A stretch of DNA of 64,000 bases from Haloterrigena alkaliphila (GTDB taxonomy: Archaea > Halobacteriota > Halobacteria > Halobacteriales > Natrialbaceae), in the NCBI RefSeq assembly GCF_017352155.2, contig NZ_CP071462.1:2666001-2730000 (forward strand), read 5' to 3'. A program made the translations under genes and the position numbers. Under the pieces are notes generated by a model, which made no database searches, had not been told where the DNA came from, and worked only from the letters and a program-made list of their open reading frames with translations. Positions 16,515-58,512 of the stretch are shown piece by piece. Positions within the stretch are counted from its first letter, which is position 1. Each line of letters begins with the position of its first letter.

Positions 16515-16832
16515 ATGAGCTCCGAAGGTAAAAAGCGAGTTCAGTTCCGCGCTCCTCGAGGGTTAGTCGAGCGAGCGGATGCGCTCGCAACTGTCCTCGA
16601 AACCGATCGCACGGACATCCTCACCAACGCACTGCGCGAGTACCTCCGTGACGCATCTCACGATGACGACATCACTCAGGAGATCGCTGGAGCGTACTAC
16701 GAGAACGACATTACCTTCCAGCAGTTGAAGGACCTCGTCGGACACGAGGAGGCAGCGAACTTTCGCGTCCTGAAGAACCAACTAAGCGACGAATTCCTCG
16801 AAGAGACTGCGGAGGAACTGGCGGACTCGTAG
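16515..16832 (+). CDS. Ribbon-helix-helix antitoxin-like protein
   Basis: 105 residues. Residues 8-45 form a CopG/Arc-type ribbon-helix-helix: a beta strand (RVQFRAPRG), helix A (LVERADALATVL) and helix B (RTDILTNALREYL). The C-terminal half (YYENDITFQQLKDLVGHEEAANFRVLKN) resembles the toxin-binding part of antitoxins that accompany PIN proteins. The stop codon abuts the ATG of the next gene, a tight toxin-antitoxin arrangement in which the RHH protein usually represses its own promoter. GC content is visibly lower than in neighbouring genes. Confidence 0.82.
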   Translation: MSSEGKKRVQFRAPRGLVERADALATVLETDRTDILTNALREYLRDASHDDDITQEIAGAYYENDITFQQLKDLVGHEEAANFRVLKNQLSDEFLEETAEELADS

Positions 16833-17351
16833 ATGGCGTTACTCGTCGCAGACACGTCCGCTCTCGTTAGTCTCGGGACTGTTGCAACTCACGAGAAGAC
16901 GCCCCTCAGTATTCTTCTCGACACCCATCTGGTCTGTATTCCAGAACAGGTGGTGTCTGAGTTGCAAAAAACGGCCCCGTACGAAGACCGTTCGGGAAAC
17001 GCCGCACAGGCCGTTCTCGACCGTCGTTCGGAGTTCAGCGTCCGAGCCGCGAAACTCGAGGAGGACCTTCCACTCGACGATGGTGAGAATGCCGCGGTTT
17101 CGCTGGCCAACGACCTCGATGCGACGCAGTTTCTCTGCGATGAATTCAATCAACTCGCGCTTATTCACGCCTCCTTAGCTGACACCCGACTCGTGACGAC
17201 ACCGTCACTCTTGACAGCGTTAGTTCGCAACGAGCACCTCGCCCCGGTAGACGCGGAAGAGCTGTTGTCGAAGATAAGCGAAGCCCGAAGCTGGGAAACT
17301 AACACGTACGTCGCGCAGGCAGAGGTGACTCTCCAACGGCAGATGCAGTGA
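16833..17351 (+). CDS. PIN-like domain toxin
   Basis: 172 residues. The N-terminus LLVADTSALVSLG gives the first conserved Asp (residue 7) of a PIN nuclease, an acidic pair lies in LDDGENAAVSLAND, and a third acidic site follows in FLCDEFN. These fit the metal-binding acidic cluster of VapC-type RNases, although the family looks divergent (closer to the DUF3368-like PIN proteins). It starts directly after the antitoxin stop. It probably cleaves RNA; target unknown. Lower GC and a position next to a tRNA gene point to horizontal transfer. Confidence 0.78.
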   Translation: MALLVADTSALVSLGTVATHEKTPLSILLDTHLVCIPEQVVSELQKTAPYEDRSGNAAQAVLDRRSEFSVRAAKLEEDLPLDDGENAAVSLANDLDATQFLCDEFNQLALIHASLADTRLVTTPSLLTALVRNEHLAPVDAEELLSKISEARSWETNTYVAQAEVTLQRQMQ

Positions 17352-17378
17352 TTGGTCCACTACCAATACTCCGGTAGT
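17351..17378 (+). terminator. Overlapping hairpins after the toxin gene
   Basis: ATTGGT-(5)-ACCAAT at 17351-17367 and ACTACC-(8)-GGTAGT at 17359-17378 share the ACTACC segment, so only one can form at a time. Both lie directly on the toxin stop codon. The position suggests a transcript end, but there is no T-run. Confidence 0.35.
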
Positions 17379-17382
17379 ATAG

Positions 17383-17437
17383 GGCGGATTCGAACCGCGA
17401 GGACTCGAATCCTCTCGTCCTCTGGGTTCGAACCGCC
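17383..17437 (-). repeat. Palindrome containing copies of the tRNA-Gln T-arm
   Basis: On the tRNA strand this segment starts with an inverted T-arm (GGCGGTTCGAACCC) and ends with a direct copy (GCGGTTCGAATCCGCC) that is identical to the T-arm of tRNA-Gln 40 bp away. A small hairpin (GAGGA-6-TCCTC, 17399-17414) lies between them. The same arrangement recurs 3' of tRNA-Gly and of the orphan tRNA half. Confidence 0.8.
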
Positions 17438-17444
17438 GAGGATA

Positions 17445-17474
17445 TTTCGCGCTCACGGAACTGTTCGCGCGAAA
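17445..17474 (-). repeat. Hairpin touching the 3' end of tRNA-Gln
   Basis: TTCGCGC (17446-17452) pairs with GCGCGAA (17467-17473) around a 14-base loop, one base from the tRNA discriminator position. It occupies the same place as the hairpins at 56826-56861 and 58458-58493. It could stop transcription or guide 3' processing. Confidence 0.7.
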
Positions 17475-17475
17475 A

Positions 17476-17578
17476 TAGTCCCGGGCGGATTCGAACCGCC
17501 GTCATGGGCTCGCTTCCGTGACGGCCGGAACCGAACACGTCCAAAGGCCCATATGATTGGCCACTACACCACGGGACT
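17476..17578 (-). tRNA. tRNA-Gln (anticodon UUG) with a 30-base intron
   Basis: Acceptor strands AGTCCCG (5', ending at 17578) and CGGGACT plus discriminator A (17476) pair fully. The anticodon stem TGGGC/GCCCA encloses loop CTTTGGA with anticodon TTG. The T-arm is GGCGG-TTCGAAT-CCGCC. A 30-base intron (17511-17540) interrupts the loop between positions 37 and 38, the canonical archaeal site cut by the splicing endonuclease; tRNA-Gln introns are known in haloarchaea. The mature length is 73 bases, and CCA is not encoded. The D-arm is short with a G-U closing pair. Confidence 0.93.
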
Positions 17579-17594
17579 CTTCGTTTCACTCATC

Positions 17595-17770
17595 GTCCCG
17601 TGTCGCTCGCAAACCCATCGGGTTTGCTCGCCACCACGGGACTTCTCACTTCGTTCGAAGCCCCGTGAGGCTCGTAAATCCAGTGGATTTACTCACCACC
17701 ACGGGACTCCTCGTTTCGCACGCCCCGGATACCTCGCAGTTCCGTCGAAACTGCTCACCACCACGGGACT
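17595..17770 (-). repeat. Array of three acceptor-mimic hairpins upstream of tRNA-Gln
   Basis: The first 12 bases of tRNA-Gln (AGTCCCGTGGTG, minus strand) recur with 5' ends at 17643, 17708 and 17770, spaced 65, 65 and 62 bp from the tRNA start at 17578. Each copy pairs with a downstream CACGGGAC-like segment and encloses an inner stem (GCAAACCC/GGGTTTGC, GTAAATCC/GGATTTAC, GCAGTTTC/GGAACTGC). The inner stems differ in sequence but keep pairing. Where pairs are imperfect they are G-U when read on the tRNA strand. Confidence 0.85.
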
Positions 17771-17986
17771 TCACTCGTAGGATAGACTACCGTCGCACAA
17801 TAGTGTTACTTTTCGTCGCTGGTGAACACCGCCTTCGGGCTTGGATATCATACGAATTAGTACCGCGTACCGAGTGTGAGATAGCCCGTTCTCACGGTAC
17901 TGGCAACGATTATCCGTGACAGCTCTCAACGTTGAGAACAACTTTTGGATCGGTTACCGAAGAGCCGCTCGAGCCGACGACGACGC
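17771..17986. other. Intergenic region upstream of the tRNA-Gln array
   Basis: 216 bp, AT-richer than average, between the first hairpin unit and the aminotransferase stop codon. It presumably holds the promoter of a leftward precursor that includes the hairpins and tRNA-Gln. No gene was recognised. Confidence 0.35.
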
Positions 17987-56742: not shown

Positions 56743-56880
56743 TGCGCGGAGCGGGATTTGAACCACTCCCGAGAACCTGCTCGCTACGCTCGCAGAACCT
56801 CGGTATAATTCAAATCCCTCGTACGATTGCTGTCGCTCGCGGAGTTGCTCGCGACAGCAATGCGCGGAGCGGGATTTGAA
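56743..56880 (-). repeat. 138-bp tRNA-3'-end cassette, copy 1
   Basis: Bounded by two copies of TGCGCGGAGCGGGATTTGAA (56743-56762 and 56861-56880), the complement of a tRNA 3' end. Inside: GGGATTTGAA (56753-56762) inverted at 56809-56818, and the hairpin ATTGCTGTCGC/GCGACAGCAAT (56826-56861). A nearly identical cassette lies at 58375-58512. Confidence 0.88.
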
Positions 56881-56895
56881 CCCGGGCCATTGGCT
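56861..56895 (-). pseudogene. Orphan 3' half of a tRNA (tRNA-Gly-like end)
   Basis: On the minus strand the sequence reads anticodon-stem 3' strand AGCCAA, variable TGGC, T-arm CCGGG-TTCAAAT-CCCGC and acceptor TCCGCGC plus A. The 5' half is absent nearby. Just before it, ACGGAAGCA matches the end of the tRNA-Gln intron (ACGGAAGCG) at the same distance from the 37/38 splice position. The T-stem has one mismatch. Either a broken tRNA, an integration scar, or a separately transcribed half. Confidence 0.6.
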
Positions 56896-57047
56896 TGCTT
56901 CCGTATTCGAGGACGAGTCGGATGAGACCTATCGACGGCTATAGAATGGTCGCTACGAGCATCGATATGAGTCCGAATTTCCTCGAATCGGGCGAATCGA
57001 CCATACGGGCGTGATAGCTCCGATTTTAGTATGCGAGTTAGAATGAC

Positions 57048-58040
57048 TTACTCGTACTGCTGTGTATCGAGTTCGTACCGTTTTACTCCATCTGACTCGC
57101 TGATCACAACGCGATTCTCATCTTCTAAGAGGTCGAGGTGGCCTATCACCTCGGACATTCCGGGGAACATTTCAGTCGCTGGAAGATCCGGAAACATCTC
57201 CTTCATAATTTGATACGCCGTCGTCGGCTCGTGGTCGGCTACGAGATCCGCGATTCGTTCTTTCCGCTCTTGATGATGAGTGATCGTCTCTCGCGCTCGA
57301 TTCTGAAGAGTCGAGATAGGGTCGCCATGGCCGCCGTACCCGAACGGGACCTCGGTATCGAGCACTTTTCGTAGTGACTCGAGATATGTCGGCAAGCTTC
57401 GCGTTCGTTCGTCTTCGGAGCCGGGTGCGAGCGTAAGTAACGGATTCGGCGTAATATCGGGCAAGACATGGTCGCCAGCAAACATGATGCCTTCCGTTTT
57501 TGCGAGATAACAGAGTGAACCAGGGGCATGACCCGGTGTCGAAAGGCACTCTAACTCTACGCCGACATCGATAGTGTCTCCCTCAGCTAATTCGTGGGAG
57601 ACAGTGACCGGATCCTGATACTCGGTGTACGGTTCCGGCAACTCGAGGACTGTATCCACCGTATCCATAGGCATTCCCATCGAGAGTAAGAACGGTCGGA
57701 AGTACTCCTGCTCCTTCTCGAAGTATCCAATTGGGTCAGACAACTGCTCGACGGCATCCTCGTGGGCGAATACATGGGCATTCGATTCCGCTACGAGCCG
57801 GTGTGCAAGACCGAAATGATCCATGTGAGGATGAGTAATAAGTACGCGATCGATATCGCTACTACTGTACCCGAAGCGAGCGAGAGAGCGTTCTAACTCC
57901 TCGTAGGCCTCCTCAGTTGCGGGTCCAGGATCGAGGACGGTCAGACCGTTCTTTGTAAAGAGATAGCAGTTTACCCGCCCGACGCTGAACGGTGTCGGAA
58001 TCGAGATCCGTTCCATTCCTTCCATAGCCACAACATTCAC
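57048..58040 (-). CDS. Metallo-beta-lactamase fold hydrolase
   Basis: 330 residues; in-frame ATGs at 58025 and 58016 are possible starts. The metal motif HPHMDHFGLAH (HxHxDH) near residue 70, later GHAPGSLCYL and a third His in FAGDHVLPDITPNP define the fold. A C-terminal winged-helix-like domain of about 75 residues (HHQERKERIADLVADHEPTTAYQIMKEMF) follows, as in the LACTB2-like subgroup. Its codon use and GC are lower than in all neighbouring genes, and it lies between tRNA-derived repeats, so it is probably acquired. Substrate unknown. Confidence 0.88.
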   Translation of the reverse strand: MNVVAMEGMERISIPTPFSVGRVNCYLFTKNGLTVLDPGPATEEAYEELERSLARFGYSSSDIDRVLITHPHMDHFGLAHRLVAESNAHVFAHEDAVEQLSDPIGYFEKEQEYFRPFLLSMGMPMDTVDTVLELPEPYTEYQDPVTVSHELAEGDTIDVGVELECLSTPGHAPGSLCYLAKTEGIMFAGDHVLPDITPNPLLTLAPGSEDERTRSLPTYLESLRKVLDTEVPFGYGGHGDPISTLQNRARETITHHQERKERIADLVADHEPTTAYQIMKEMFPDLPATEMFPGMSEVIGHLDLLEDENRVVISESDGVKRYELDTQQYE

Positions 58041-58353
58041 ACTTCAATTACTTATAGTGCTCACCAACGCCGTAATTCGGGTTCGGGTTATTGGCATACC
58101 TATCTCATGATAAGGCAGTACGATCGTTTATGACGGATCATAGTCTACTCGAAGCACGGTTCCTCCGGTAGAAGATCGGCGATCGCTTCTTGAATGGCGG
58201 GAACCCACTCGTCTTCTTCGACGGTCCGTTGCGCCCAGGGTAGCGAGGTCACGATTTTTGAAATCGCTGTACGACGGTAGGGTCGTTAGTTGAACCCGGA
58301 CTATGAGCTGTGACCCACATCTTTTGTTCACCTATAATGTGTGGGAAACCTGC
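58041..58353. other. AT-rich region with a gene remnant
   Basis: 313 bp between the hydrolase start and the second tRNA cassette; it holds the pseudogene fragment at 58145-58285 and an AT-rich promoter-like stretch near 58040-58070. Confidence 0.5.
58145..58285 (-). pseudogene. 3' remnant of a protein-coding gene (46 codons)
   Basis: A frame without a start codon of its own, opened just after a TAA, encodes IVTSLPWAQRTVEEDEWV, AIQEAIADLLPEEPCFE and a stop. The composition is protein-like and acidic, unlike the other frames here. It looks like the truncated end of a former gene, cut on the 5' side. Not identified. Confidence 0.35.
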
Positions 58354-58372
58354 GAGACAGCTCTGCTGTCTC
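58354..58372. repeat. Perfect hairpin next to the tRNA cassette
   Basis: GAGACAGC-TCT-GCTGTCTC, an 8-bp perfect stem with a three-base loop, two bases outside the second 138-bp cassette. Confidence 0.7.
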
Positions 58373-58374
58373 CA

Positions 58375-58512
58375 TGCGCGGACCGGGATTTGAACTACTC
58401 CCGAGAACCTGCTCGCTTCGCTCGCAGAACCTCGGTATAATTCAAATCCCTCTTGCGATTTCTGCTGCTCGCGAAGTTGCTCGCAGCAGAAATGCGCGGA
58501 CCGGGATTTGAA
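58375..58512 (-). repeat. 138-bp tRNA-3'-end cassette, copy 2
   Basis: Bounded by TGCGCGGACCGGGATTTGAA at 58375-58394 and 58493-58512. Inside: inverted GGGATTTGAA/TTCAAATCCC (58385-58394, 58441-58450) and the hairpin ATTTCTGCTGC/GCAGCAGAAAT (58458-58493). Same length and order as copy 1, with stem changes that are matched on both arms. Confidence 0.9.

Follow-up and report, generated by a model that had tools for sequence, protein, structure and literature searches.

Bacterial REP/BIME palindromes are tagged by GTAG or CGTC and linked to RAYT transposases (PMC3733652). They are short, imperfect, gene-free and extragenic, and they are strand-specific and have a conserved foot, all of which they share with the repeat units described here. 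REPs are, however, dispersed and their arms are not copied from a neighbouring gene, whereas the outer arms of the present units are rewritten for each target. The PATEs and SMRs of Haloquadratum, transposase-free palindromic mobile repeats (the mobilisation of SMRs is called enigmatic), resemble the units in being haloarchaeal palindromic repeats without a transposase, but they reportedly insert without duplicating the target and have other mobile elements as their targets, SMR-A is about 110 bp in length, and none is described as a copy of a tRNA end (PMC3119063). The target segment, hereafter X, is duplicated in the units, in contrast to the absence of target duplication in PATE/IS605-derived elements. 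MITEs are likewise non-coding and short with inverted arms, and a target-site duplication was found for the units, both where they adjoin tRNA ends and at the two sites away from tRNAs, with X ranging from 8 to 22 nt. The terminal repeats of MITEs are, however, fixed by the transposase, whereas the unit arms change with the target gene (GTCCCG, GCGCCG, GCGGCG, GTGCCG or GCACCG).

Archaeal tRNA-targeting integrative elements (PMC8371274) also duplicate the tRNA 3' end and leave the gene intact, but these carry genes and an integrase, whereas the units are about 60-120 bp in length, often stand in tandem, and copy 5' ends as well. A kink-turn, as bound by L7Ae, has a similar tandem G.A pair beside a short unpaired stretch; its C-stem does not appear to be conserved in the units, because the bases that separate the GA pair from the basal stem on the 3' side vary (GGTA, GCCT, TCCT, ACGA); the GA pairs are kept in the unit sets. 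Repeats of the present kind were not found described in the open-access literature.

The tRNA-Gln locus and its upstream array

The window, the whole stretch of 64,000 nucleotides under analysis, carries on its minus strand an intron-bearing tRNA-Gln(TTG) gene (Table 1) that scores 50.7 bits with Rfam and is missed by ARAGORN. Upstream on the same strand, AGTCCCGTGGTG is repeated three times (5' ends 17770, 17708 and 17643) at spacings of 62, 65 and 65 nt, the last one reaching tRNA-Gln, and the three copies of the tRNA 5' end recognised in the initial annotation are real. They belong to three units of about 48 nt (17769-17595), each consisting of X, a palindromic core and an inverted copy, X'. 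These units score 60-69 bits with the covariance model R1, which was trained on 25 units drawn from several genera, the three window units included. In each unit, X (GTCCCGTG, tRNA positions 2-9) is followed by GTGGYGAG, a 7-bp inner stem with a 3-nt loop, CGA, about four variable bases and X' (CACGGGAC), and the two GA dinucleotides are opposed, forming a tandem G.A mismatch that flanks the core. Damage is seen in the 3' arm of the distal unit (TCCGGGGC). The array had been taken for a series of acceptor-stem mimics. A pairing stem copied from the tRNA end is indeed present, but GTCCCGTG/CACGGGAC pairs positions 2-9 and not the acceptor positions 1-7, indicating that the unit copies the tRNA end and not the geometry of the acceptor stem.

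Table 1. Positions of the repeat units and associated features in the window
Feature	Position	Strand	Description
tRNA-Gln(TTG)	17476..17578	-	73 nt plus ~30-nt intron at about 17510-17539; Rfam RF00005, intronless relatives
Unit 1 (distal)	17722..17769	-	X GTCCCGTG; core GAG-CAGTTTC-GAC-GGAACTG-CGA; degenerate X' TCCGGGGC; R1 60.5 bits
Unit 2	17660..17707	-	X GTCCCGTG; core GAG-TAAATCC-ACT-GGATTTA-CGA; X' CACGGGGC; R1 67.0 bits
Unit 3 (proximal)	17595..17642	-	X GTCCCGTG; core GAG-CAAACCC-GAT-GGGTTTG-CGA; X' CACGGGAC; R1 69.3 bits
Linker between units 2 and 3	17643..17659	-	tandem-GA mini-hairpin CTTC-GA-AC-GAA-GT-GA-GAAG; GA-hairpin scan
Remaining linkers of tRNA-Gln array	17708-17721 and 17579-17594	-	
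Promoter-like conserved motif GAAAAGTAACACTATTG	17798..17814	-	upstream of array
Trailer hairpin h1 of tRNA-Gln	17445..17474	-	TTTCGCGC-GA-AC..GT-GA-GCGCGAAA; GA-hairpin scan
Inverted partial copy of tRNA-Gln T-arm (X')	17425..17437	-	sequence
Trailer hairpin h2 of tRNA-Gln	17399..17422	-	GAGGAC-GA-..-GA-GTCCTC; GA-hairpin scan
Decayed direct copy of tRNA-Gln 3' end	17375..17395	-	21 nt, 3 mismatches
Trailer unit behind tRNA-Gly(TCC)	58375..58492	-	h1, X', h2, exact 21-nt copy of tRNA 3' end
Second X-h1-X'-h2-X block of tRNA-Gly 3' end	56743..56890	-	1.5 kb farther downstream

The pairing is supported by covariation. In a set of 30 tRNA-Gln units that spans several families, 96.7% of the pair cells are paired and cells with double changes number 44 as against 14 in shuffles, while a mixed set of 25 Gln and Gly units gave 98.7% paired cells and 78 double changes as against 29 (a level reached in 0 of 500 shuffles); these loci came from exact-pattern searches that fixed part of X and the GA bases, and those found by the palindromic-core search had the arms, five of the seven inner-stem pairs and the loop left free. 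The inner stem thus varies while staying paired, as the initial annotation proposed, and does so widely. With distinct stems counted, wobbles exceed C.A mismatches by 14 to 4 on the strand of the 30 tRNA-Gln units, in agreement with the earlier remark that G-U pairs appear on the tRNA strand. Behind tRNA genes, however, the wobble side tracks the unit's own strand, antisense to the tRNA (8 versus 3). Folded together, the leader and tRNA-Gln are far more stable than shuffled controls (z = -6.8 for the tRNA strand and -5.0 for the opposite strand). In an Rfam scan of the window and eight loci, tRNA was the sole known RNA family above the gathering score.

When up to two mismatches are allowed, the 4.27-Mb genome contains just three occurrences of the palindromic core, two of them in the tRNA-Gln array and one before a tRNA-Gly. 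A tandem array of core units of about 50 bp was observed elsewhere in this genome (C1:3484868-3485010; L389 369-511, minus strand), distant from any detected tRNA. Two neighbouring ORFs of 105 and 172 aa (16515-17351, plus strand) end beside the tRNA-Gln trailer; by eye they look like an antitoxin/PIN-type toxin pair, and a Pfam search of the two gave no match.

Units at other genes and in other genomes

The general layout of the family is X-core-X'-linker-X(gene), in which X repeats 8-16 bases from the end of the gene, the palindromic core is short (GTGAG-C[AG]NNNCC-GNN-GG...-GCGA) and a second tandem-GA mini-hairpin usually serves as the linker. When 292 genomes of the class were searched by pattern, 48 palindromic matches were followed up, all co-directional with the downstream tRNA. 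Among these, 47 lie just upstream of a tRNA detected by ARAGORN, namely Gly(TCC), Gly(CCC), Gln(TTG) or Thr(CGT), and the 48th lies upstream of an intron-bearing tRNA-Gln recognised by reading the sequence. By covariance-model search of 295 genomes of the phylum, at least 24 were positive, every one in a single order; this count is a lower bound because the filters were strict. The search of other haloarchaeal genomes that had been suggested thus detected units across Halobacteria, with their pairing supported by covariation. Many genomes, including same-genus relatives of positive ones, are without units.

Inspection of about 30 tRNA-Gln loci of relatives gave roughly a dozen with one to three units and others with none, a patchy occurrence among close relatives accompanied by tandem expansion. 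The distance from GAAAAGTAACACTATTG to the first X equals the distance from this motif to the tRNA in unit-less relatives. At loci with GTAACACTATT, the first X is most often 26 nt downstream, and in most unit-less relatives the tRNA starts 26-33 nt away. Since the promoter-to-X distance is within the promoter-to-tRNA range, the units take the place of the tRNA end and displace the tRNA downstream. At two tRNA-Gln loci (L019 and L084) the leader unit is interrupted by a different set of hairpins (among them CTCGCC-GA-AC..GT-GA-GGCGAG), which is what would be expected if one hairpin element could insert into another. Directly upstream of tRNA-Gln in many Natrialbaceae stands a zinc-finger/HNH-like gene, so named from a motif and not from a profile (L007 446-1456, L009 717-1466). 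It was dropped as a candidate partner of the units, being present in the unit-less L009 as well. Viral carriers of the tRNA-Gln 3' end were also considered and dropped; two viral contigs match, both with an intact host-like tRNA-Gln and no units.

R1 also matches downstream of tRNA-Arg(CCT), tRNA-Ala and tRNA-Gly, on the opposite strand, where X is the reverse-complemented tRNA 3' end (5-16 nt, mostly 8-16). Of the 47 tRNA-linked R1 matches checked, 26 are upstream-sense and 21 downstream-antisense, and all face into the gene; apart from weak palindrome echoes, no outward-facing unit was found among them. The orientation is therefore set by the gene end that the unit faces and not by transcription. 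A few R1 matches lie away from intact tRNAs and show the same duplication of X, 22 nt for a unit pair before a tfe-like (transcription factor E) gene and 11 nt for a unit before a menB-like gene, both genes being named from their translated starts, which makes the duplication a property of the unit and not of the tRNA. A regulator specific to tRNA-Gln is ruled out as the general account, because the unit is found also at Gly, Thr, Arg and Ala genes and at both ends.

The arms follow each tRNA. For tRNA-Gly genes starting with GCGCCG, GCGGCG, GTGCCG and GCACCG, the counterparts of GTCCCG in tRNA-Gln, X is identical and X' complementary, and perfect agreement of tRNA, X and X' was found in 17, 12, 2 and 1 units, respectively, the other units differing by at least one base. 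Among 13 genomes of genus g46, all with units at the same tRNA-Gly(TCC), the pairwise difference is 0.05 for X, 0.00-0.03 for X' and 0.00-0.10 for the inner stem (0.00-0.03 within one stem type), as compared with 0.35-0.49 for the loop, 0.39 for the variable tail and about 0.5-0.61 for the leader further upstream. Because the flanks are saturated over the same span, the stems of these units are maintained, and they are under purifying selection. Stem-breaking changes in related genomes, which the initial annotation regarded as evidence against such selection, occur in some tRNA-Gln units (unit 1 of L004, unit 2 of L005, and L147) but not in the tRNA-Gly(TCC) units of g46.

Trailers downstream of tRNA genes

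A related second layout, tRNA-hairpin 1-X'-hairpin 2-X, is found behind many tRNAs, with X being a 21-nt copy of tRNA positions 53-73 (T-loop to discriminator) about 100 bp downstream. In four genomes such copies follow 23/46, 10/30, 13/30 and 5/30 tRNAs, or 51/136 in total (up to three mismatches, within 300 nt), as against 0.08% of mismatched tRNA-flank pairs. Of the tandem-GA hairpins behind tRNAs, 36 lie on the sense strand and 3 on the opposite one, and other mismatch motifs are nearly absent. The presence of trailers varies within a genus, and old copies are decayed; in one comparison of a trailer unit with an empty site (G000 versus G004), the flanks are too diverged for a clean reading.

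The trailer of tRNA-Gly(TCC) in the window is followed by a second block, and the stretch of about 1.5 kb between the two (within 56743-58492, minus strand) holds a metallo-beta-lactamase-fold gene (57048-58040; PF00753, E = 5e-25), an arrangement that resembles the integration of a small element at the 3' end of the tRNA. This is the one exception among 20 tRNAs of the home genome for which 12 kb downstream was searched for a distal copy with element genes in between; all other copies are local, and integron-like gene cassettes behind tRNAs were for this reason dropped.

Origin of the units

The same core at unrelated gene ends implies that it has moved, and the match of the arms to each new end implies that the target served as their template, either at their formation or in constant renewal. 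The tandem G.A mismatch and the G.T-tolerant pairing of one strand are the requirement of a folded single strand, RNA or DNA. On these three grounds we prefer, with belief and doubt in equal measure, a family of strand-specific haloarchaeal hairpin elements that copy the end of their target, are kept folded, and are homogenised with the tRNA. The elements would be mobile and would depend on a mobilising enzyme. The core would spread between gene ends as a single-stranded hairpin, and insertion would produce one direct and one inverted copy of the target end. If the hairpin primed fold-back synthesis, X-core-X' would result, and X would be regenerated when the strand folded back once more by way of the linker; later exchange among the repeats would keep X, X' and the tRNA end matched, and selection would keep the hairpin folded. 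Being located between promoter and tRNA, the units in 5' leaders are probably part of the transcript and are then probably removed when the leader is trimmed. Of the three ideas put forward in the initial annotation, a mobile palindrome family fits best, while a regulatory leader and a decoy for RNase P or a synthetase are weakened by the antisense units behind other tRNA genes and by the two non-tRNA sites.

Several observations count against the target-copying element. Among very close strains no insertion was observed; the presence of units in genus g46 is steady with the stems fixed, which looks like a benefit to the host rather than a passing element; X begins within about one base of the mature tRNA end, which is odd for a purely DNA-level element unless it is merely the limit of conserved sequence; and the GA hairpins of the 3' trailer class show the sense-strand preference given above.

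A less probable account is birth in place, in which GA mini-hairpins beside tRNA genes trigger fold-back template switching during replication, producing X-h-X'-h-X arrays that are then homogenised while nothing transposes. Two successive fold-backs would yield exactly this layout, which is seen with several unrelated hairpins (the R1 core, CTTGCC-GA-..., GACGGAC cores and the h1/h2 trailers), and the patchiness and tandem expansion of tRNA-Gln units are in agreement with it. Local duplication alone is, however, insufficient for one specific core at unrelated genes in many genera, and a fresh fold-back would produce perfect palindromes and not conserved tandem GA mismatches.

Still less likely is an RNA-level leader element of the pre-tRNA, such as a switch in which X/X' exchange strands with the acceptor and tune tRNA folding or RNase P cleavage. 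The location between promoter and tRNA, the preference for G.U over A.C on the unit strand and the conservation of stems are all consistent with such an element. When the leader is folded alone, every X pairs with its own X' (7.6 expected pairs), and at the predicted equilibrium of the full pre-tRNA the native form stands against a swapped form, X:tRNA-3' plus X':tRNA-5'. Natural leaders give a predicted native acceptor pairing of 0.35 and shuffled ones 0.55 (p = 0.001, 47 loci), from folding energies that disregard high salt, tRNA tertiary structure and base modification. Leader units may thus compete with the acceptor stem, and the strand swap may matter in the cell. Scrambling of X', however, had no consistent effect and gave no consistent loss of native folding, leaving unsupported the idea that X' insulates the tRNA from X. 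A structured cis RNA leader would always be on the transcribed sense strand, whereas 21 R1 matches are antisense downstream of tRNAs and others precede protein genes, and the units are absent from many genomes and same-genus relatives. The strand swap cannot account for the antisense units behind genes.

The T-loop-to-discriminator block is typical of integrase att sites. The 3' class copies this very block, and tRNA-Gly in the window has two blocks with a gene between, but that the copies are att scars of tRNA-targeting integrative elements, with hairpins as integrase arm sites, is improbable, because apart from this one no further cassette-bearing copy was found in the 12-kb search of 20 tRNAs, the copies lie consistently 80-220 bp away in a fixed hairpin layout, and the 8-12-nt copies of 5' ends form no att block.

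Returning to the target-copying element, we propose only tentatively that the units form a new category of selfish DNA, in which an inserting hairpin rewrites both of its arms to the target end, direct and inverted, thereby rebuilding and co-evolving with the gene, and in which the leader of a pre-tRNA could swap acceptor strands. The tRNA genes are classic landing sites of mobile DNA, and if this reading is true, it would represent a distinct use of them, by tiny gene-free elements that leave the tRNA intact through copying of its end. The units supply concrete candidates for the source from which haloarchaeal tandem-GA palindromes arose. Many haloarchaeal tRNA genes gain long structured leaders and trailers, with which tRNA annotation and RNA-seq mapping must cope, and the arrays offer a natural system in which to study concerted evolution and DNA synthesis by fold-back.
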